Of a stretch of 42,306 bases of DNA, positions 27,729-40,718 are shown piece by piece. This DNA comes from Methylococcales bacterium. GTDB lineage: Bacteria; Pseudomonadota; Gammaproteobacteria; Methylococcales; Methylomonadaceae. The stretch covers positions 1 to 42,306 of the forward strand of contig QVQE01000167.1 in NCBI GenBank assembly GCA_003584865.1. The letters are read 5' to 3'. Made by a program: the position numbers and the translations under genes. Below the pieces are notes generated by a model. The model had not been told where the DNA came from. It saw nothing but the letters and a program-made list of their open reading frames with translations, and searched no databases. How positions within the stretch are numbered: the first letter of the stretch is position 1; each line of letters begins with the position of its first letter.

Positions 27729-28005
27729 ACTCCCAGCTATTAATTGACAAATCAATGGGTTGTGCTGGGCTTATCACTTATAAATCTAGCCAGATTAGGG
27801 CACGTATTGTGTTAACTATATGGTTAACTGTTGTGGAATAACTGCAAGTTCCGATTTTGCAGCAACTGGAAAGTGCTTTTAATGAGTACCAAAATGCCTA
27901 CCACAGTATATTTTTTGAATCATAGTGAGTAGGGGCGTTATTTGCTATGATGCCTTCATTATAGTTTGCCAGCAACTCGCGGTAGCCACTTTAAATAGGA
28001 TCAGC

Positions 28006-31000
28006 ATGAGCTTTAACGAAGATACCCGAGTCAAGATTCCGGCAATATTACATTTATGTCGTTTAGGCTATTCTTATCTATCGTTAAATCAAACACCGCG
28101 AGACGAGAGCACTAATATCTTTACTGATATATTTTCAGCCAGTCTTTTAAAAATAAATCCCGATAGCGATGCCAGTGCCATTAATAGAACTTTTGAAAAT
28201 GTATCGCTGGTTTTAGAAAATGAAGACTTAGGCGAAGGCTTTTATAATCTACTGACCGCTACCTCTGGCATAAGGCTGATTGATTTTAAAGATTTCAGTA
28301 ACAATACCTTTCATGTGGTCACTGAACTGACTTATAAAAATGCGGAGGACGAATTTCGTCCCGATATTACTTTATTGATTAATGGGATGCCCTTGGTTTT
28401 TATAGAAGTCAAAAAACCTAATAATCATGAAGGCATCTTGGCCGAAAGGAACAGAATCAATACCCGTTTTAAAAATAAAAAGTTTCGTAAGTTTATCAAC
28501 CTGTCACAAATCCTGGTCTTTTCCAATAATATGGAATATGACCTTGAATCCATTGAGCCTATTCAAGGTGCGTTTTATTCGTCAACCTCGTATTCCAATG
28601 CTAATTTTAATTGTTTCAGAGAAGAACAGACTTTTGATTTACAAACGCTATTAGCGCCCGAAAAGGATGAACTAGAGAACGAGGTATTACAGGATAACAA
28701 TCTGTTAACCATTAAACACACGCCCGAATTTATCACGAATAAAAACCCCAACTCGCCGACTAATCGGCTATTAACGTCGCTCTTTTGCAAAGATAGACTG
28801 GCGCTGCTGTTAAAGTATGGACTGGCTTATGTACAGGAAGCTAAAGGTCTTGAAAAGCATATCATGCGTTATCCGCAATTATTTGCCACCCAAGCCATAG
28901 AGCGAACCCTTGAAAGTGGTTTAAAAAAAGGCATTATCTGGCATACACAAGGTTCAGGTAAAACGGCCTTATCGTATTACAACGTGCATTATTTAACCGA
29001 TTATTTTCAGCAGAAAGCCATCGTCCCCAAGTTTTATTTTATTGTGGATCGACTTGATCTCATGGAGCAAGCCAAGAGCGAATTTTCTAGTCGTGGCTTG
29101 ATCGTACACAATATTAATTCAAAAGACGATCTGGTTAAAAACTTTAGACTCAAACAGGCCATCCATAATTTATCGGGTAAACGGGAAATTACCGTTGTCA
29201 ATATTCAAAAGTTTAAAGATGATAGCCATGTCCTCAAGTTTAATGATTACGATATCAACAGCCAGCGCATTTACTTTTTGGACGAAGTCCATCGCAGTTA
29301 CAACCCTACCGGCAGTTTCTTAGCCAATCTGATTAACTCAGACAGAAATGCCATTGTGATTGGCTTAACAGGCACACCACTGATTGCCAGTGACCGACGT
29401 TCTCGGGATACTTTTGGCGATTACATCCACAAATATTATTACAACGCCTCTATTGCCGACGGCTATACCTTAAAATTGATCCGGGAAGGCATAGAAACCA
29501 AATACCAACTGGAATTACAGCAAGCCTTAAAAGAGGTCGAGGTATTAAAAGGCACCACCGATAAACGCCATCTCTATGCACATGAAAAATTTGTAGAACC
29601 CTTATTGGATTATATCGTTGAAGATTTTGTCCAGAGCCGAAATCGACTGGGTGATCAAACCATGGGTGGCATGATTGTCTGTGATAGCTCAGCACAGGCC
29701 AGAAAGTTATTTGAGATTTTTATCAGCAAATACAACCCGACCCAAAAGACTATCGAAGAAGTGCCGCTACTCGCAAAGGTGGCAGAAGTCGCTGCGCCTT
29801 ATCGTAGCTATTTAATAACCCAGCAAAAGCCGCTTATTGCCTCCTTGATATTGCATGATTTTGGTAGCAAAGCCGATAGAAAACAGGAGGTCTCTGATTT
29901 TAAAGACGGTAAAATTGATTTGCTCTTTGTCTACAACATGCTACTCACCGGCTTTAATTCCAAGCGACTTAAAAAGCTGTACGTTGGTCGAGTCATTAAA
30001 AGCCATAACTTATTACAGACCTTAACCCGCGTTAATCGACCTTATAAAAATTTTAAATACGGTTACGTGGTTGATTTTGCGGACATCCGCAAAGAGTTTG
30101 ACACCACCAATAAAGCGTATTTTGTCGAACTGCAAGCCGAGTTGGGCGATGAAATGGTCAACTATACTCAGCTTTTTAAATCCAAAGAAGAAATAGAAAG
30201 CGAAATTCAGGACATCTACGAGCATTTATATCCTTATGACTTAACGAATGCCGAGCACTTCTCACAGCAAATCAGTCAGATTCAAGATCGTAAGACCGTA
30301 CTGGAAATTAAGAAATCTTTAGAAAATGCTAAAAACCTGTATAACCTGATTCGCTTGTCCGGTCATTTTGATATTCTCGAAGCCGTCGATTTTAAAAAAC
30401 TTCATCAGCTTTATAATGAAACCGCACACCATCTTGAACTGCTGAATTTAAAAGAATCTGTAGAGCATAGTGTGGATAACACTAATCTGCTGAATGTCGC
30501 TTTAGAAAACGTGTTGTTTTTATTTCGTAAGGTATCAGAAGCAGAAATGGTTATTGCCGATCAGCTTAAAGATACATTGCGTAAAACCCGTGAAGCCTTA
30601 AACAGTAATTTTGATCAGCAAGATCCTGAGTTTATAACCCTCTATGAAGAGTTAAAACGCTTGTTTGCTAAAAAGAATCTTGATGAAATAACCCAGGAAG
30701 AGATGAAGCAGAACATGACAGCGCTGCAAAAAATACAGGCGGCGGGCGCAGAACTCAATCGAAAAAACAATTTGCTTAAAGCCAAATATAACCATGATGC
30801 CAAGTATGCCCGTATTCATAAACGCTTGCTAGAACGGGGCAATCTGGGCCATAAAGAAAGTGAAATAGGCGCCACACTGATGACTATCAAACAGCAGGCT
30901 GATAATAAGATTCTGATGAACAGCAAATTATTGAATAACGAAAATTATTTTCAAGGCCTGATGATGAACGTGGTCTTTGATGGCTTTGAACAATCGCAAC

Positions 31001-31089
31001 TAGACTTGGCACCCGAAACCGCACTGTATATTAACGACTGCTTAGTCAAAGAATACCTAAACGAATATCAAGGCAATCCTCAATGGTAA
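28006..31089 (+). CDS. hsdR: Type I restriction endonuclease R subunit
   Basis: The protein of about 1027 residues is the DNA translocase/nuclease of a type I restriction system. The N-terminal nuclease motif RPDITLLINGMPLVFIEVKK is near residues 118-137. Walker A THQGSGKTALS-like (HTQGSGKTALS) is near 316, the DEVH box YFLDEVHRSYNP near 425, motif III IGLTGTPL, and a C-terminal helical domain binds HsdM. I chose ATG 28006 over the longer frame at 27925. It overlaps the hsdM remnant by 7 bp. It appears intact, but with hsdM truncated and no hsdS in the window it should be non-functional unless subunits are supplied elsewhere. Confidence 0.92.
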   Translation: MSFNEDTRVKIPAILHLCRLGYSYLSLNQTPRDESTNIFTDIFSASLLKINPDSDASAINRTFENVSLVLENEDLGEGFYNLLTATSGIRLIDFKDFSNNTFHVVTELTYKNAEDEFRPDITLLINGMPLVFIEVKKPNNHEGILAERNRINTRFKNKKFRKFINLSQILVFSNNMEYDLESIEPIQGAFYSSTSYSNANFNCFREEQTFDLQTLLAPEKDELENEVLQDNNLLTIKHTPEFITNKNPNSPTNRLLTSLFCKDRLALLLKYGLAYVQEAKGLEKHIMRYPQLFATQAIERTLESGLKKGIIWHTQGSGKTALSYYNVHYLTDYFQQKAIVPKFYFIVDRLDLMEQAKSEFSSRGLIVHNINSKDDLVKNFRLKQAIHNLSGKREITVVNIQKFKDDSHVLKFNDYDINSQRIYFLDEVHRSYNPTGSFLANLINSDRNAIVIGLTGTPLIASDRRSRDTFGDYIHKYYYNASIADGYTLKLIREGIETKYQLELQQALKEVEVLKGTTDKRHLYAHEKFVEPLLDYIVEDFVQSRNRLGDQTMGGMIVCDSSAQARKLFEIFISKYNPTQKTIEEVPLLAKVAEVAAPYRSYLITQQKPLIASLILHDFGSKADRKQEVSDFKDGKIDLLFVYNMLLTGFNSKRLKKLYVGRVIKSHNLLQTLTRVNRPYKNFKYGYVVDFADIRKEFDTTNKAYFVELQAELGDEMVNYTQLFKSKEEIESEIQDIYEHLYPYDLTNAEHFSQQISQIQDRKTVLEIKKSLENAKNLYNLIRLSGHFDILEAVDFKKLHQLYNETAHHLELLNLKESVEHSVDNTNLLNVALENVLFLFRKVSEAEMVIADQLKDTLRKTREALNSNFDQQDPEFITLYEELKRLFAKKNLDEITQEEMKQNMTALQKIQAAGAELNRKNNLLKAKYNHDAKYARIHKRLLERGNLGHKESEIGATLMTIKQQADNKILMNSKLLNNENYFQGLMMNVVFDGFEQSQLDLAPETALYINDCLVKEYLNEYQGNPQW

Positions 31090-31700
31090 TGCAAGACTTT
31101 ACAACCCAAACAAAAGCACTGATTGATAACCTGAAAGGTGTTTGTACCTCTTATGGGTTGGGCAATGATGGTAATGAATTTAAAATCATCACTCAAGTGT
31201 TTTTATATAAATTCATGAATGACAAGTTTGTGCATGAAGTGAAATCCATCGATGCCAAATTAAAAACAGCCGACAACTGGGAGCAAGCCATTGCGGGTTA
31301 TACCGATGCACAATATCAATTGTTATTGATGCGGATGAGTCCCGACAGTGCTAAATTAAAGCGGGAACATTACTTATCCAATCTGTTTAACCAACAGGAT
31401 ACCGAAGACTTTGCAAAACTGTTTGATGACACCTTACGCAATATTGCCATTTTTAATAATGACATCTTCTCGGTTAAAACCGGCACCGGTGCCAAGATTA
31501 CCTTGTTTGATAATGAACTCAGCAATTACATTACCGACAGTTCACAGCGTGATAATTTCTGTAAAGCCATCGTTAATCAATTGGTCAACTTTAGTTTTGA
31601 GCAAATCTTTAACCAGAAATTTGATTTCTTCGCGACCATTTTTGAATACCAGAGTAACGGGGTCAGAGTAAACTTAAATATAAATGTGAATAAGAGCTAA
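31083..31700 (+). pseudogene. hsdM: Truncated type I methyltransferase HsdM (N-terminal domain only)
   Basis: The first 190 or so residues are a normal HsdM N-terminal helical domain (LKGVCTSYGLGNDGNEFKII, ending FDFFATIFEYQ). In intact HsdM this is followed at once by the methylase core with the SAM motif and NPPF. Here the frame enters foreign sequence at about 31652 and stops after 15 unrelated residues at 31700. No SAM-binding or NPPF motif and no later hsdM part is seen downstream. The break coincides with the terminal repeat of the decayed mobile element at 31654. Confidence 0.9.
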
Positions 31701-33782: not shown

Positions 33783-36446
33783 CTACCCCATCACGTCATC
33801 CAACTGTTGAAAAACACCTTTACCTTGCGCATTCTTCTTTTCAGCCATTAAAAACAAACAGTGGTCGCTGCTCTTCTTGGCCCAAAATTCACCGACCGCG
33901 CGTTTTTCTCTGGAATCATCATTTGTTGCATACACCTTGCCTTTGTATTCAACAACCAATATCCTGCCATCTTCTAACTCTGCAACAAAGTCAGGATAAA
34001 ACCAGCCTTTTGCTAAAGGTAAGCGGAATGCAGCTCCGTCTCGACTTACTAAATTTCTAATCCAGAATTTAACCTTGGGATGACTATCAAGCAGCTTTGC
34101 ACACTCGAACTCTTCACCTTCTTCTTTTAAGTCTTCAATCTCTGGATAGAAATGTTTGGTAAATGCATAGCGCCCCTGATAAAAGGGCGGTCTGGCGGGA
34201 TAATAGCCGGGGGAGAATTCAAATACATGATCAAAGCGGGTGTCTAATAAGTCGCTTTCTTCAAATAAGGCATACTGAAAACCTTTATCTGCCGCTTGTT
34301 GCCGATAGCTTTCAATTTGTTCACTCACTGCGCGCGCCAATACATATTTGCTCCGCACTAATCCCGTTAACGGTAAACCACGCGATTTGGTTAAATAAGG
34401 CATCAACCTCGCCAAGAATCCACGTAACTGCGAGGGAATTAAGCCAATGTGTCTAACTTGCGGCTCCAGCCAAAACAAAAGATCGTTTTCACTCACATTA
34501 CTGGGTACCCAATCCAGGTTGTAAGCTTGATTTTGATCCGCTAAACGATAGCTCAGTTTCTTACCGTCAATATCCACTTCAAACGTATGCGCGGTTTGAA
34601 CCAGATTAAAATTGGGTAATTCGGCGGGATAATCCAGTAACGACCATTCGCCGAGACTATACAAAAAAGCATCAGAATCGAGCAGTTCCCATAATTCACC
34701 TTGCTTTAAGCAAAGCTGCGGTAAGGGTTTAAACGTCTGGCCTCGTTGAGAGGGCGCACGCGCCACGATGATGCGTAAATTATGATACTCACAAGCCCGC
34801 TCAAGTTCTTGCTTTTGGCTACCCGTCACCGTTTTAAGTAATTGTGTTTTTGTCTCAGGCGATACTTCGCCCTTAATCTCAATACGAAAGGTGTTGTGAG
34901 CGGTCGGCGTAATAGTGACATGAGTCGATAGTTCCGGCGTTAAAACCGGCTTTGTTTCCAGCTCAAATCGTAGAGTCGGTTCAGTCCGCACCACAACATT
35001 ATCTTGACCGTCAAACAGGTCATTTTGATCTTGATTTTGATGGCCTCTGGTAATGTTGGCCGCCGCTTCCAATGCCTCAAAGCCCATTTCAATTAACTTA
35101 TCCGTCAGTTGTTTGGCAACTACGGCAAAGTCAGGTGAGGCCAAGTGAGCATAAGCACAGTTCAACGCCTCACTGGTGCGCCGCGTGGCATAAGGCATTC
35201 GCAAGACCCGCCCTAATAATTGCTCTGCATCTTTGCTGGAGCGCACGTCTTTTACTGAACAAAATACATACGCAAACGAACAATCCCAACCCTCTTTTAA
35301 GGCCTCCATGGTAATAATGTATTTGATCGGACAAGCGGGTGAAAATAAATCTAAACCCTCCAATTCACGTTGCTTGCCCGTAGCAATCGCTATTTCTTTT
35401 GCTTCGATATGCAGTTGCTCAATTAAATGCGCCTTGAGTATGTCAACAGTGACTTCGCCATTCTTGGCTTCAGCCTGAAATAAAACCATGGGGCGCACAA
35501 AATCAGATTCTTTTTGCGCTTCCAATACCAGTTTCTTACCCGTCAAAACTGCATCCTGCACCGCTGCCTGCCAATCTTTATGTTCGGTCAATACAATCGG
35601 CAGCTTGATCATGTTTTCGGCTTTTAATTCCGAAGCCGAACAGCGATACAGTATATTGGAGGCTGAGGTATTACTGGTATCGGGTGTTGCTGTTAATTCA
35701 ATAATACACGCCGGATGCAAGCGCTTTAAGGTATCAAAGGTTAATTTAGTTCGCGCGTTATGCGCTTCGTCCATGATGACTAAGGGTTGATGTAAAGCCA
35801 ATAAATTCGCAAACGAGGCTTTTACTTTACCGACGTCTTCTTGTCGCAGTCCATTTTCTTGTAAATCCTTTTCACTGATTCTTTCTAAACGCTGTTCGGG
35901 ATCAGTAATCCCAACAAAGTGCGGCTCAAAATCTTCATGGTGTATATACACTTTACGCCCACTGGTATCTTCAACGCGCAACGCCGCTAAGGTGCCCACA
36001 ATGATCAAGGTTTTACGGCCTATATCCTGGCGGCGAATCTGAGTGACTTCACCCACATCAAACACGCGCAAACGATCTAGACCAAACTCATTTTCTAAGG
36101 CTTGCCGATAGGGATGACCGACCTTTTTTAAGGCTTCCAGGGTTTGTTCACGAATGGTATTGGTCGGCACTAACCACAACACTACCGGATAATCCTGCTC
36201 CAGATAGGCTTTTTGCGCCACACTGACGGCATAAGAAGCCAGTACCGTTTTACCGCCACCGGTAGGTAAACGCAGACAGATATAAGGCATTTCACCAAAG
36301 TCGTAATGACGATAAGGCACTGGCGGTAAGCCTTGCTCAACATAACTTTGCTTATAGGCCTCTGCCACTGAATCAGTACGAGCCTCAACCAAAAACCGTG
36401 ATAAAGCGGTTAATGCCCGGTTTTGATAATCCTTTAATGTAAACAT
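33783..36446 (-). CDS. res: Type III restriction enzyme Res subunit (helicase-nuclease)
   Basis: The 887-residue protein has superfamily 2 helicase motifs: Walker A LPTGGGKT at residues 60-67, DEAH at 226-229, ELTATPDTS for motif III and a motif VI QLLGRVLRMPYA. A C-terminal PD-(D/E)xK nuclease reads YPDFVAELEDGRILVVEYKG with Asp819, Glu833 and Lys835. Res needs Mod for DNA recognition and cuts about 25 bp from the site after translocation or sliding between head-to-head sites. It is the last gene of the six-gene operon, 3 bp after the HigA-like antitoxin. All motifs look intact. Confidence 0.93.
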   Translation of the reverse strand: MFTLKDYQNRALTALSRFLVEARTDSVAEAYKQSYVEQGLPPVPYRHYDFGEMPYICLRLPTGGGKTVLASYAVSVAQKAYLEQDYPVVLWLVPTNTIREQTLEALKKVGHPYRQALENEFGLDRLRVFDVGEVTQIRRQDIGRKTLIIVGTLAALRVEDTSGRKVYIHHEDFEPHFVGITDPEQRLERISEKDLQENGLRQEDVGKVKASFANLLALHQPLVIMDEAHNARTKLTFDTLKRLHPACIIELTATPDTSNTSASNILYRCSASELKAENMIKLPIVLTEHKDWQAAVQDAVLTGKKLVLEAQKESDFVRPMVLFQAEAKNGEVTVDILKAHLIEQLHIEAKEIAIATGKQRELEGLDLFSPACPIKYIITMEALKEGWDCSFAYVFCSVKDVRSSKDAEQLLGRVLRMPYATRRTSEALNCAYAHLASPDFAVVAKQLTDKLIEMGFEALEAAANITRGHQNQDQNDLFDGQDNVVVRTEPTLRFELETKPVLTPELSTHVTITPTAHNTFRIEIKGEVSPETKTQLLKTVTGSQKQELERACEYHNLRIIVARAPSQRGQTFKPLPQLCLKQGELWELLDSDAFLYSLGEWSLLDYPAELPNFNLVQTAHTFEVDIDGKKLSYRLADQNQAYNLDWVPSNVSENDLLFWLEPQVRHIGLIPSQLRGFLARLMPYLTKSRGLPLTGLVRSKYVLARAVSEQIESYRQQAADKGFQYALFEESDLLDTRFDHVFEFSPGYYPARPPFYQGRYAFTKHFYPEIEDLKEEGEEFECAKLLDSHPKVKFWIRNLVSRDGAAFRLPLAKGWFYPDFVAELEDGRILVVEYKGKVYATNDDSREKRAVGEFWAKKSSDHCLFLMAEKKNAQGKGVFQQLDDVMG

Positions 36447-36449
36447 GAG

Positions 36450-36746
36450 TTATCCGCCATGCGGATGGGCATGTAAACGTAAGCCCAGTGCTTTAATGAC
36501 TTTCATGATAGTAGAAAACTCCGGATTTCCATCAGGTGAAAGAGCTTGAGCTAATCCGTCATGCGTCAACCCTGTTTCACTAGCTAAACGCGCCATTCCA
36601 CGAGCACGGGCAATAACTTCCAAAGCATACCGAATTAAGCGACCATCCCCACTGTCTTCTTCAACACAGACATCAAAGTAAAGCGCAATATCTTCTTCGG
36701 TATGAAGGTAGTCAGCACTATCCCAGCGTGAAAATATTTCAGACAT
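36450..36746 (-). CDS. HigA-like addiction module antidote (HI1420 type)
   Basis: The 98-residue protein belongs to the small antidote family found just downstream of HI1419-like toxins: DSADYLHTEEDIALYFDVCV, then a degenerate helix-turn-helix ASETGLTHDGLAQALSPDGN followed by PEFSTIMKVIKALGLRL. It starts 3 bp after the toxin stop and ends 3 bp before res. Its place inside a restriction operon is unusual. It should bind the toxin and perhaps repress the whole operon. Confidence 0.9.
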   Translation of the reverse strand: MSEIFSRWDSADYLHTEEDIALYFDVCVEEDSGDGRLIRYALEVIARARGMARLASETGLTHDGLAQALSPDGNPEFSTIMKVIKALGLRLHAHPHGG

Positions 36747-36749
36747 TGT

Positions 36750-37046
36750 TTACTCCTGCCAATTATTTGCTAATGTAATCGCCCGCTCAATATCACTATC
36801 TTGCGAGCTTTTATCACCGCCAATGAGTAATAAAATCAAGAGCGGCCCTTTTTGCATGTAATAAACGCGGTATCCTGGCCCATGATCCACGCGCATTTCA
36901 TGAATACCACCACGTACTAGTTTGACATCGCCGGGATTACCTAAGGCAAGACGGTCAACACGTGCTTGTATACGTACTTTTGCACTACGATCTTTCAAAC
37001 TTAACAGCCAGCGTTCAAAACTGGACGATTTAATAATTTCAAACAT
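36750..37046 (-). CDS. HigB/RelE-like toxin (HI1419 type)
   Basis: The 98-residue protein matches the HI1419-type RelE superfamily: FEIIKSSSFERWLLSLKDRS, GNPGDVKLVRGGIHEMRVDH and GPGYRVYYMQKGPLLILLL, then GGDKSSQDSDIERAITLA. Such toxins are ribosome-dependent mRNA interferases. It is 5 bp downstream of mod and 3 bp upstream of its antidote. Confidence 0.9.
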   Translation of the reverse strand: MFEIIKSSSFERWLLSLKDRSAKVRIQARVDRLALGNPGDVKLVRGGIHEMRVDHGPGYRVYYMQKGPLLILLLIGGDKSSQDSDIERAITLANNWQE

Positions 37047-37051
37047 TATCG

Positions 37052-38572
37052 CTACACAGCCCTGACATCATAAGGAATTTGTTTGAAGATGATATTTTCA
37101 ACGTCCAAACGAGGTTTACCGAAGCGACTGGCTTCACCGTAAATGATTTTACGTCCCGCATGTTTTGGTAGCACGTCTAATACAGCTTGCGTCAGTACAT
37201 TACCACTTTGCGGCCTACGATCCCCTAGAATACCGTTATACAATAGATAATAAGCGGTTCCGTTATGAATGCCCAATAATGCTGAATCGGCGGGTTTTGC
37301 TAGAGGGCTGCGGGTTTCACAAAACCAGATATGTGCGGCTAATGCCGGAAAACGTACATTGGGATGGATTGAACCCAGTTCATCAAAGATAGTTTCACCC
37401 AAGCGAAAATAATGAAAGCCACCGCCACCTTGCCAGTTAACGACTTTGGAGATACCCCCTTGCTCGCCTTCGATGACTTTTTTTAAGCGCGGCTGGCAAT
37501 GGGTTTCTGCATGATCGCCCATTTCTATGCCTATATAACGGCGATTCATTTTATGGGCAACAGCGGCGGTTGTGCCTGAGCCAAGGAAGCAGTCTAAGAT
37601 GAGGTCATTTGAATTAGTAGCTATGTGAAGAATACGCTCAATTAACCTCTCTGGTTTTGGACTTTCAAATGCTGCAGTCTTTCCAAAAAGGTTATGAATT
37701 TCTTTTTTTGACTCATCGGTATGCCCAACTTCATCTGATGGCCACCATGTCCAAGGTGCAACTCCTGCTACTTCAGATAAATATCTAATGATATTCGGTT
37801 GTGCATCACCTTTTTTACCAAAATAAATTCTACCTTCTAATAAAAGTTTTTCATATGTTGCACGAGCAACGCCCCAACAACGTCCTTCAGGTGGTCGATG
37901 AACTTTTCCAGATGGAGTTATAACTTCATAAAACTGATCTGGTGTTGCATGCCCTTCTTGTGCGGTCATTGGAATTGGTCGCCATCTTCCAAGCGGATCA
38001 TTATTAGGATTTCTGTAAACCTTAGCTTGCTGCTCTGTTAATAAAACCAAGTTACGATTTTTCTTGAATATATCTGGATGTTTTGCGTAAACAAAAAGAT
38101 ACTCATGTACATCACCAATTGCCTCACGATTTTCTCTTGAATACCGTTTTTGCCAAACATTAGAGGCCACAAAACTCTTACGCCCAAAGACCTCATCCAT
38201 CATCACCTTCAAATAATGCGCTTCATTATCATCGATGGATACCCAAATACTACCGTCTTCTGCCAGCAATTCCCTGAGTAATTCCAAACGTGGATACATC
38301 AAACTTAACCACAAAGAATGCTCTAAGTTATCATCATAATGGGTAAAAGCAGAACGGGTATTGTAGGGCGGATCAATATAAATACATTTCACTTTACCCG
38401 CATACAGCGGTAACAAGGTTTTTAAGGCTTGTAAGTTATCGCCTTGTATCAACATGTTTTCTGTATCGGGATCACCACTACTTAATTCCGGCACGGCCTC
38501 TAGCAAACGGTAAGGCACTTTCTGTACAGTTCGCACAGCATCCGGCTTGTTCAACCAATCGAGTAGGGGCAT
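37052..38572 (-). CDS. mod: Type III DNA methyltransferase Mod subunit (beta class)
   Basis: The 506-residue protein has motif IV DPPYNT at residues 67-72, before motif I LDCFLGSGTTAAVAHK near 326-341. This is the beta-class order of Mod (N6-adenine) methyltransferases. The region between them (about residues 130-290) is the target recognition domain and contains WQKRYSRENREAIGDVHEYL. The neighbouring helicase-nuclease gene identifies it as type III. It is somewhat shorter than many Mod proteins. No simple-sequence repeat that would make it phase-variable is visible. It recognises DNA for both modification and cleavage. Confidence 0.93.
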   Translation of the reverse strand: MPLLDWLNKPDAVRTVQKVPYRLLEAVPELSSGDPDTENMLIQGDNLQALKTLLPLYAGKVKCIYIDPPYNTRSAFTHYDDNLEHSLWLSLMYPRLELLRELLAEDGSIWVSIDDNEAHYLKVMMDEVFGRKSFVASNVWQKRYSRENREAIGDVHEYLFVYAKHPDIFKKNRNLVLLTEQQAKVYRNPNNDPLGRWRPIPMTAQEGHATPDQFYEVITPSGKVHRPPEGRCWGVARATYEKLLLEGRIYFGKKGDAQPNIIRYLSEVAGVAPWTWWPSDEVGHTDESKKEIHNLFGKTAAFESPKPERLIERILHIATNSNDLILDCFLGSGTTAAVAHKMNRRYIGIEMGDHAETHCQPRLKKVIEGEQGGISKVVNWQGGGGFHYFRLGETIFDELGSIHPNVRFPALAAHIWFCETRSPLAKPADSALLGIHNGTAYYLLYNGILGDRRPQSGNVLTQAVLDVLPKHAGRKIIYGEASRFGKPRLDVENIIFKQIPYDVRAV

Positions 38573-38588
38573 GGCTTGATTTAATCCT

Positions 38589-39233
38589 TTAAGGTTGATT
38601 AAGTTGTAAGGGTAAACGTGGCTTAAAAGCCAATAGCGGAAGCACTTCTTTGGAGTAAGAACAGAGACATTCGATAAAATCGGCTTCTAAGGTTTCACTT
38701 CTTAACACTAATCTTAGTGTGCCATCAGGTTTGGGTGAACCCAGTAATTTTTGCTTAACAATAGCAAAACCGAATTTATCCATCGCTAATAAAACTGCGC
38801 TTTCAAACGTGACTACCGCATTTTGTAACGAGGAAAAGACAGTGGGTAATTGTTTCTGATGCGCCAGTAAAGCTTTCAAAGCTCTTTTGTCTCCAGTTAT
38901 CAGCAAGGGATTATTAATTTCAACAGCGGCGGCAAATAAGAATTTTTCACCTCCGTCTATGTTATCAATATCTTCAAGTTGGGCTAATAACGCCTCATTT
39001 TTAACAGCGGGTAAGGTTTGCGTTGTATCGAGAAACGCTTTAAGTCTCACCACTGTTTCTTCGTTGCCGCATTTACTCAAGGCTTTAGCAGGTTTTTTGG
39101 GCAGCAATTGGTACTTTGCGGCATCAGTGATAAAAACATCGGTCTCGTCACAACCCAGTATCTCCGGCAAGACATCTAACAAGTCGCATTGTGCCAACTT
39201 AAGTATGATGTCGTTATCGGCAAGAACGATCAA
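38589..39233 (-). CDS. PIN-like domain protein
   Basis: The 214-residue protein begins MIVLADNDIILKLAQCDLLD, with the acidic residue pattern of PIN-type nucleases. It continues with IDGGEKFLFAAAVE and NPLLITGDKRALKAL, which carry the other acidic positions (Glu in GGEK, Asp in TGDK). Sequence similarity to classic VapC is weak and the length is greater. It overlaps the metalloprotease gene by 4 bp, so the two form a translationally coupled pair resembling predicted PIN/COG2856 toxin-antitoxin systems. RNA cleavage is inferred. Confidence 0.7.
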   Translation of the reverse strand: MIVLADNDIILKLAQCDLLDVLPEILGCDETDVFITDAAKYQLLPKKPAKALSKCGNEETVVRLKAFLDTTQTLPAVKNEALLAQLEDIDNIDGGEKFLFAAAVEINNPLLITGDKRALKALLAHQKQLPTVFSSLQNAVVTFESAVLLAMDKFGFAIVKQKLLGSPKPDGTLRLVLRSETLEADFIECLCSYSKEVLPLLAFKPRLPLQLNQP

Positions 39234-40237
39234 TCAGCATTCCCTTTTAAGTGGGTTTGTAATAAGGTGTAATCGTCTTCGTTAAGCTCGTCTAATGCTA
39301 ACAAATTTAATAAAGCGGCACGTAAACTTTCTTGATCAGTTGTTGGGGTATCTTTGCAGATTTTCTTTATCGCTGCATGAGCAACACCCCAATGTTTTTT
39401 TGAGTGACCGTAATTTAAAACAATATGTAGAGGATCGATGTGATTCTTTTCCGCATAAAGTATAGCGGCTGTTGCTAATTCATCACCATTAAGGTTTCGG
39501 CCCCTTGGCACAATTTTACATTCAGGATCACCTGTTAATAACTCCATTGCGAAGCGGTTTGCCGCACTCTCAATCTCATCGTCTGCCTCTGAATCAATTT
39601 TTTTGTCAACCATAGCCTGTTCAGCGGTTACATGACCTAAGGTAATGTGTCCCAACTCATGAGCCAAATCAAACAGGGCGTAACCATAGGGATGGTTTTG
39701 CGTTAAAACGATAACAGGATGACCATTTTGTTCAAACGCCAACCCCTCCATCTTCTTTACTTTTTTGGGTAAATGCTGGAGGTGAATAACAGGAATTCCC
39801 ATATCAAGGCAATGCGCCAGCAAATCTTGAAAGGTAATCCACTTTTTATCGACAAGCAGCAGTCTTCGCAACTCACTGGCATCGGGATAAAAATCGGGGC
39901 GTGGTTTAGTCGGAAAGACTTTTAATACAACTCGGGCAAGTGAACGCGCGATAGCACAGGCAACACTTAAGTCATCTACAATAACATTTTCACGATGCTT
40001 AAAACGAATGCCTTGGGGTAAATTTAACTCGGCTTCTGCGCTGTCTGCCCACAATGTTTCAGCGCGAACGCCAAATGTTTGGCCTAAAATCAGACTGGCT
40101 TGTTGTAATCCAGCGGGGGTTTCGGCTATTTCATCGTCCCACCAGTCAGGTAGCAACGAGTTAATATATTTTGTATTGTAGCCGACTGTTTTTAACTTAC
40201 TGTACAGGCGTTTCATTTGAGGATTTGTTACCGTCAT
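39230..40237 (-). CDS. ImmA/IrrE family metallo-endopeptidase
   Basis: The 335-residue protein carries the zinc protease motif LFDLAHELGHITLGH (His193, Glu194, His197). A downstream DDEIESAANRFAMELL supplies the third zinc ligand, as in ImmA/IrrE (COG2856) peptidases that cleave repressors. The N-terminal part (about 60 residues) may be a diverged helix-turn-helix. It is the first gene of the six-gene operon, with GAGGTG as ribosome binding site. It probably senses a signal and regulates either the PIN protein or operon expression; this is inference from family and gene order. Confidence 0.85.
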   Translation of the reverse strand: MTVTNPQMKRLYSKLKTVGYNTKYINSLLPDWWDDEIAETPAGLQQASLILGQTFGVRAETLWADSAEAELNLPQGIRFKHRENVIVDDLSVACAIARSLARVVLKVFPTKPRPDFYPDASELRRLLLVDKKWITFQDLLAHCLDMGIPVIHLQHLPKKVKKMEGLAFEQNGHPVIVLTQNHPYGYALFDLAHELGHITLGHVTAEQAMVDKKIDSEADDEIESAANRFAMELLTGDPECKIVPRGRNLNGDELATAAILYAEKNHIDPLHIVLNYGHSKKHWGVAHAAIKKICKDTPTTDQESLRAALLNLLALDELNEDDYTLLQTHLKGNAD

Positions 40238-40344: not shown

Positions 40345-40599
40345 TCAATGGCTTATGTTAAGTTTCGACGCAAATTCAAGGAAGCGCTGGAAATCTTCGC
40401 GATCCGCCATGAAATCGGCGGGAATCTTTGTGCGATCAGCAAGTTCGAAAAACTCCGCCCAAGATGCCGGTTTAGGAGATAGTATCACTTCGCCAGTCAC
40501 GGGATCTCGACGAATAAATACTTCGGTTCCCGGGAAACGGAATTCCTTCGGAAGTCGTAGTGCCAGGCTCGATAACTCAATTTTATTTATACTCCCCAC
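40345..40599 (-). CDS. Orphan VapB-like antitoxin (AbrB-type)
   Basis: The core LALRLPKEFRFPGTEVFIRR, then DPVTGEVILSPKPASWAEFF, is the SpoVT/AbrB DNA-binding and toxin-binding pattern of VapB antitoxins. I chose GTG 40599 because a TAGGAG ribosome binding site lies about 10 bases upstream; that gives 84 residues, normal for VapB, while the frame extends to 40668. No VapC gene follows it: the next 108 bp are non-coding and then the metalloprotease operon begins. It is therefore an orphan, although the PIN-like protein two genes downstream might be its partner. Confidence 0.85.
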   Translation of the reverse strand: MGSINKIELSSLALRLPKEFRFPGTEVFIRRDPVTGEVILSPKPASWAEFFELADRTKIPADFMADREDFQRFLEFASKLNISH

Positions 40600-40718
40600 A
40601 AATAAATAGCTCCTATACCTATCTACCAGTCCGAAGCATTTTCTCGTATTATCCTGTAAATAAAGCATTTTTTAACCCTCCCTTATCTAAAATAGGGCCT
40701 ATAGTCGAGGTATCAGTC

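Follow-up and report, generated by a model that had tools for sequence, protein, structure and literature searches.

VapB52-VapC52 (Rv2515c-Rv2514c) consists of an IrrE-type peptidase protein and a PIN protein, the former acting as antitoxin of the latter. According to the available part of its description, VapB52 cleaves itself when given single-stranded DNA (ssDNA) and thereby frees its toxin-binding N-terminal domain, with an FR motif at the domain junction being the probable cut site; tRNA cleavage and phage resistance were reported for VapBC52, the protection being seen with overexpressed toxin and not with co-expressed VapB52 (PMC13273310). In the same text portion CapP, the peptidase of the CapP-CapH pair of CBASS, is stated to cleave its partner protein CapH. 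In the anti-phage system RosmerTA (RmrA-RmrT) an ImmA-domain protein serves as antitoxin of its partner, and the ImmA zone includes PIN-like partners, as far as the accessible text goes (PMC10440598). Operons of a COG2856 zinc peptidase gene beside a PIN gene, with an Xre domain that is fused or separate, were predicted as toxin-antitoxin systems in phages and plasmids, so that the precedent invoked in the original prediction for the locus described below is indeed in print (PMC2701414, available portion). PD-lambda-2, an abortive-infection system resembling toxin-antitoxin modules, is made up of three components, encoded by a HigB-like gene in first place, an Xre-peptidase gene and a P4-antitoxin-like gene; its ImmA-domain component PD-lambda-2B, the fusion of Xre and peptidase, was toxic by itself, and component A relieved this toxicity (PMC9519451, part of the text). 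Classical VapBC modules have a small intact vapB gene beside the PIN gene.

The gene pair imm-pin is a variant of these known ImmA-PIN modules, and its HTH-less branch at a phage hotspot is new. It lies in a window of 42,306 nucleotides from a methane-oxidizing bacterium, the whole stretch of DNA that was analyzed, in which it had been noticed as a coupled two-gene module of an ImmA/IrrE metalloprotease and a PIN-like protein. Both reading frames are found on the minus strand where they had been placed, and the 4-bp overlap between them is confirmed. The pair and its neighbors are arranged as follows.

33783..36446, minus strand: Res subunit of a type III restriction system (PDLC03650, 2.4e-235)
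36450..37046, minus strand: toxin of the RelE/ParE family (HI1419 type) plus an antidote of HI1420 type, located between mod and res (TIGR02683, 1e-37; TIGR02684, 4.9e-28)
37052..38572, minus strand: type III Mod methyltransferase, 16 bp past pin (PDLC03644, 2.5e-192)
38589..39233, minus strand: pin, protein of 214 residues with predicted PIN fold, beginning with TTG, putative RNase toxin (pLDDT 92 for the model, best Z 8.7; PHROG 15597, 1.2e-60)
39230..39233, minus strand: TTGA overlap of 4 bp, joining the imm stop (TGA) and the pin start (TTG), read from the sequence
39230..40237, minus strand: imm, ImmA/IrrE (M78) metallopeptidase of 335 residues (PF06114, 1.2e-10; PHROG 18577, 2.6e-103; model pLDDT 88)
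40345..40668, minus strand: VapB-like open reading frame, middle of vapB kept and both ends replaced

TTG start and 4-bp overlap recur in the loci L015, L016, L017 and L021. If the first start of each open reading frame is used, 29 of 48 pin genes begin with GTG or TTG, as compared to one of 42 imm genes (after skipping 6 and 14, respectively). As second gene with weak starts pin thus fits a toxin held below its antitoxin. Near the imm start no inverted repeats of at least 8 bases were found in the window, L023 or L025, and a promoter search yielded one poor match against 5.2 expected and is uninformative. Both PHROG 15597 (pin) and PHROG 18577 (imm) are phage protein families annotated as of unknown function.

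How tightly are the two genes linked? In a scan from the pin side 58 loci gave a PIN hit, among them the window (L070) and near-identical copies. All but one of them (57 of 58) have imm directly upstream on the same strand, in line with the coupling originally proposed. The sole exception, L044, lacks imm and also the N-terminal portion of pin, D6 included. A scan from the imm side covered 74 loci. In 53 of them pin is adjacent, with imm-profile scores that never fall below 60 bits, and in the remaining 21, which are without adjacent pin, the scores reach 51 bits at most; this split was chosen after the fact, and some members had been used in building the profile. Since 43 of the 53 imm-side contigs were already known from the pin side, the distinct sequences, 54 for pin and 56 for imm, are the fair count. 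The pairing is near-obligate. Moreover, dN/dS was 0.03-0.12 in all of the comparisons in which dS was finite and not zero (11 of 18), and this together with the conservation as a pair suggests that the imm-pin observation goes beyond chance. Carriers are rare in the genomes sampled, with seven of 101 relatives, including the genome of the window itself and one fragment, and in further genome samples three of 398 (own genome included) and one of 369 (the own one).

The 214-residue protein had been called PIN-like from sequence. The window protein gives zero Pfam or NCBIfam matches, and 30 pin homologues gave nothing better than 0.12 against Pfam. An AlphaFold2 model built from 30 homologues (mean pLDDT 92) aligns best in VIA-align with PAE2754 (Z 8.7, rmsd 3.6, 125 residues aligned, 14% identity), a score to be read with the caution that Z below 8 may reflect merely a common arrangement. 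Of the top 24 VIA-align rows, 14 carry a VapC/VapBC, FitAB or PIN/toxin-antitoxin name; the remaining ten are archaeal hypothetical proteins and ribosome-assembly chains, which we take to be mostly PIN proteins. Foldseek likewise ranks VapC-type proteins first, with weak E-values (best 0.43). A pin profile searched against sequences of solved structures produced four matches, the best at E 0.029, that were taken as chance. As the structural matches span approximately residues 1-150 with a helical extension as remainder, the model points to a PIN-like fold, in which the following elements are conserved among the 54 distinct homologues.

39210..39218, minus strand: D6-N7-D8, first acidic cluster (D6 and D8 in 54/54)
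38946..38957, minus strand: D93-x-G-E96 (D93 in 52/54, E96 in 54/54)
38889..38891, minus strand: D115 (54/54)
38802..38804, minus strand: E144 (53/54)
38589..38783, minus strand: helical extension at the C-terminus (residues 151-214 plus stop), from the model (D170 in 53/54)

G95 and L99 are invariant like D6, D8, E96 and D115, and these four acids are candidate active-site residues of the kind expected of a PIN protein. The original prediction had named a fold other than PIN and a lack of conserved acidic residues in homologues as findings that would speak against it; with a PIN-like fold modeled and four acids kept in 54 of 54 homologues, neither was encountered. VapC carries a conserved acid in the segment of the third helix, where pin shows none: within residues 9-92 no acid reaches 95% conservation in the 54 distinct homologues. 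Residue 41 is Y, F, H or S in all 54.

For imm the assignment as peptidase is based on a match to Peptidase_M78 (PF06114, E 1.2e-10, above cut-off) and an AHELGH sequence. The peptidase part of the model (pLDDT 88) has CapP (7t5t) as best structural match with Z 8.9, rmsd 4.4 and 142 residues aligned, followed by a match to IrrE (3dti) with Z 7.4 and 97 residues aligned; these VIA-align rows cover residues 117-297, so that the N-terminal fold is barely probed. A single-sequence search against solved structures returned chance matches only. PDB entry 9vzy was matched over the imm peptidase at E 0.0014 and is presumably VapB52, given the identical His/His/Cys/Glu spacing. The elements of imm on which the proposal below is built were counted among 56 distinct homologues.

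40022..40237, minus strand: N-terminal region, residues 1-72, with LPxWW motif, proposed toxin-binding domain (five helices in the model; P30 and W32 in 55/56)
39998..40003, minus strand: linker motif [F/Y]79-K80, putative site of self-cleavage (F/Y in 54/56, K in 55/56; aligns with [F/Y]R of RmrA-like proteins)
39647..39661, minus strand: HExxH motif, residues 193-197 (H193, E194 and H197 in 56/56)
39569..39571, minus strand: E223, proposed third zinc ligand with inferred role (56/56)

HExxH is also kept in 29 of 29 aligned imm members. The imm N-terminus had been described as weakly resembling a helix-turn-helix. Five helices are predicted there at residues 6-63, and zero HTH families (Pfam) are listed for 29 members of the subfamily at E up to 10, with filters that drop most matches above 0.1. 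By contrast L083, an Xre-ImmA protein of a relative, gives HTH_3 at 3.3e-12. A local hhalign comparison of the imm subfamily profile with nine RmrA-like Xre-ImmA proteins, chosen out of 16 extracted, has a probability of 97.7 over query residues 50-274 and runs from the last Xre helices of these proteins through the peptidase, placing their [F/Y]R at the [F/Y]K of imm. RmrA models cover only residues 138-236 of the window protein, and PADLOC PD-Lambda-2_B matches 27 of 29 imm members at 1e-5, in the window protein over residues 145-236. Presumably the HTH of imm has degenerated, and the N-terminal part, in which LPxWW is nearly invariant, has been retained in another role.

Comparison with the described systems reveals both likeness and difference. 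VapB52 shares with imm the pairing with a PIN protein and HEXXH plus Glu; comparable in layout are its five-helix N-terminal part, as imm is predicted to have five helices there, and an aromatic-basic motif near the junction, which is FR in VapB52 and [F/Y]K in imm (PMC13273310, available part). Unlike VapB52, imm has no recognizable HTH, and the switch cysteine of CapP and VapB52 is no general feature of the imm family: a Cys within 28 residues after HExxH is found in 19 of 56 homologues, at position 208 in eight of 56, and in the window imm there is none between HExxH and third ligand. In addition, imm is shorter (335 as compared to 415 residues), and imm-pin often resides in prophages, unlike VapB52-VapC52. 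RosmerTA has a pairing of ImmA-domain protein and partner in common with imm-pin; imm differs from RmrA by its partial match and the missing HTH. Since no HTH, no match to RmrA over its full length and no general switch cysteine were found, imm-pin appears to be a member of neither RosmerTA nor VapBC, and from the latter it also differs in that no small intact vapB gene stands beside it in the window and the annotated P2-like loci. The predicted COG2856/Xre-PIN operons agree with imm-pin in peptidase, PIN gene and mobile context and differ in their Xre domain, of which none was recognized with imm-pin, nor was an Xre component found adjacent to imm in the annotated P2-like loci. CapP, the best structural match of imm, cuts a separate repressor, and beside imm in the window neither a gene for such a CapH repressor nor a CBASS operon was found. 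PD-lambda-2 resembles what is proposed for imm by employing an ImmA-domain component in abortive infection and differs by having three components, as compared to two with PIN. Five of the nine RmrA-like Xre-ImmA genes (L083, L085, L087, L090 and L096) precede a PIN-like gene, recognized in four cases by weak PIN or PDC-S70 scores and in L096 by eye; L094 has no PIN-like neighbor in view. Profile kinship between imm-linked pin and these Xre-ImmA-linked PINs is weak (probability 22%), and for this reason kinship is not claimed. Three of the PIN-like neighbors match the PADLOC candidate PDC-S70, which the window pin matches weakly.

In the window the gaps from pin to mod, to the RelE/ParE-type toxin, to the HI1420-type antidote and to res are 16, 5, 3 and 3 bp, and based on this spacing imm-pin apparently heads an operon with a type III restriction system. 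The restriction link is local and not family-wide: mod adjoins the pair in the window, L015 and L021 and as a fragment in L016, the pair in L017 lies beside an integrase-like reading frame, and L020 has no mod on its 3.6-kb contig. G012, another genome of the genus, contains a relic of the same locus (L022, 2785-3273) without imm and most of pin; its flanks are 92-94% identical to the window and the vapB piece is retained. When scanned from the pin side this relic gave no row.

The VapB-like protein encoded just upstream had been suggested as an orphan antitoxin and target of the protease. Its DNA resembles an intact vapB (L073) only over 176 bp (40394-40569) at 79%, the ends of vapB and a vapC were undetected, and NCBIfam scores are below cut-off; the reading frame thus looks like a damaged vapB and not like an intact orphan antitoxin. 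Intact vapBC pairs are present in L072 and L073. Furthermore, a vapB just upstream of imm was not seen in the annotated P2-like loci or L015-L019, while L021 ends too early. Owing to the damage, the scores and the missing vapB in the loci read, the idea lacks support, and the VapB-like neighbor was dropped as imm target, although it may still have a function; a likelier substrate would be imm itself. L018 has a small upstream reading frame that is HTH-like by eye. Upstream of the pair in L018 (5896-8323) and L019 (9347-10893) a VakA-like kinase is encoded (PDLC02911, 1.5e-6 and 2.6e-7), and upstream proteins of unknown function in both loci share an FCWTKMG-ESGE motif by eye; possibly these genes form a larger defense cluster.

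Where does the pair reside outside the window? Among 44 viral-contig loci from the pin side, 37, counting the broken L044, have a P2-like portal gene downstream of the pair on the opposite strand at a distance of 10-1747 nt, and in 28 of these gpA is also found upstream. The other seven comprise L031 with gpA only, L055-L059 beside an integrase-like reading frame and L069 among tail genes, the latter two calls made by reading. Both gpA and the portal gene are present in five of five Enterobacteriaceae loci read. In records from Klebsiella, Enterobacter and E. coli the replication endonuclease gene and the portal gene flank the pair, and in L013, L023 and L025 nothing else lies between gpA and portal gene. 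In complete E. coli genomes 25 of 5,426 have a match, 13 of which cover at least 80% of the query (three loci read). Ten viral contigs added from the imm side contain no P2 marker in the available DNA; among them L144 shares the integrase-like reading frame and L140 has a recombinase-like one, both by eye. Isolated-phage records gave zero matches to three pin queries at 1e-5. The pair is also found on a cyanobacterial plasmid.

Between L023 and L038 the module proteins are 98-99% identical and the portals 52%, and between L023 and L033 the portals are identical and the modules 55-56% identical. Over 190 pairs from 20 chosen loci out of 42, identities of PIN and imm correlate with 0.86, as compared to 0.51 (PIN) and 0.39 (imm) with the portal, indicating a cassette that is exchanged between phages and moves independently of the phage backbone. 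In L041 (4996-6639) pin is 87% identical to L023, and imm is 76% identical to L032 and 55% to L023, which suggests partner exchange. The gpA-gpQ (old/tin) site is a documented hotspot in P2-like phages. Of the systems cloned from it, old-tin and three of eight others conferred phage resistance, the remaining five of eight showing no activity; non-defense genes are found there as well, such as a putative partition system in about a quarter of P2-like phages (PMC9122126, available portion). The words 'imma' and 'irre' are absent from the main text of that paper, and among the listed matches and text portions covered by a literature search no publication names imm-pin at the P2 site.

How could such a pair act? 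The toxin-antitoxin frame of the original prediction is probably right. By analogy with the described systems we infer PIN toxicity, self-cleavage of imm and anti-phage defense, and we incline, by a small degree, to the reading that imm-pin is a mobile two-protein abortive-infection switch of toxin-antitoxin type, with imm as antitoxin and sensor whose self-cut at [F/Y]K frees the PIN protein. In the resting cell the PIN protein, an RNase toxin, would be held by the five-helix N-terminal region of imm. The imm peptidase would sense infection, most likely as ssDNA as reported for CapP and VapB52, and cut its own linker at [F/Y]79-K80, thereby detaching the N-terminal region and freeing the PIN protein, which may then cleave tRNA or other RNA so that growth stops before phage release. 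In the window, being first in the apparent operon, the switch could serve as fallback of type III restriction. Against this reading count the linker, which is [F/Y]K and not FR, the lack of a general switch cysteine, the non-defense genes and the five inactive systems at gpA-gpQ, the missing P2 markers in the ten imm-side viral contigs, the reversed precedent of PD-lambda-2, the protection by VapBC52 only with overexpressed toxin in the text available, the lack of a pin acid at 95% in residues 9-92 and the weak kinship to Xre-ImmA-linked PINs.

A bolder version, unlikely as a whole, would see a phage-carried death switch independent of transcription. Here imm, derived from Xre-ImmA proteins, would be DNA-damage sensor and antitoxin without DNA binding, would have kept the N-terminal fold only to hold the PIN RNase, and would cut itself at [F/Y]K without a cysteine switch; heading a type III restriction operon in the window, it might be triggered by DNA ends or ssDNA when restriction acts or fails. 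As a rival reading that is likewise unlikely, imm could control the PIN protein without cutting itself, its substrate being either PIN, for example at the C-terminal extension, or some protein of phage or host. Such activity would be in accord with HExxH and E223 in all 56 homologues, a conservation that makes imm probably more than a binding antitoxin, with the stretch of PIN C-terminal to the fold matches, which might act as a cap to be removed, and with the precedent of CapP and CapH; yet the linker motif within imm is nearly invariant and aligned with that of RmrA-like proteins, and, short of a systematic search, PIN has revealed no candidate cut site.

Rather improbable is that imm-pin is a maintenance (addiction) module or a regulator of prophage induction lacking anti-phage function. 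Prophages and plasmids do carry the pair, maintenance genes are among the occupants of the P2 site (PMC9122126, in part), and B. subtilis ImmA is required to inactivate the repressor of a mobile element (PMC2701414, in part); however, in the annotated P2-like loci no repressor gene stands beside the pair, the phage repressor-like gene being located elsewhere. Reversed roles, with imm as harmful enzyme restrained by PIN as in PD-lambda-2, where 2B alone is toxic and A rescues, are very improbable in view of the conserved PIN acids, the position of pin as second gene with often weak start codons and the antitoxin role of the ImmA partner in RosmerTA and VapBC52 (PMC9519451; PMC10440598; PMC13273310; available text in each case).

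As a natural HTH-less ImmA-PIN module, imm-pin could allow the release of a toxin to be examined separately from transcriptional regulation, and the reading proposed for it gives a testable function to PHROG 15597 and 18577, which are frequent at the P2 old/tin site. PrrC is a suicide nuclease that backs up restriction, and if the link to the restriction operon were functional, imm-pin would provide another one. Elsewhere in the window, an HsdR-like reading frame at 27925-31700 on the plus strand is followed by a short HsdM-like one of 205 residues that looks truncated by eye, and positions 189-612 contain low-complexity (SGLDINKP)-like repeats that are open on both strands.
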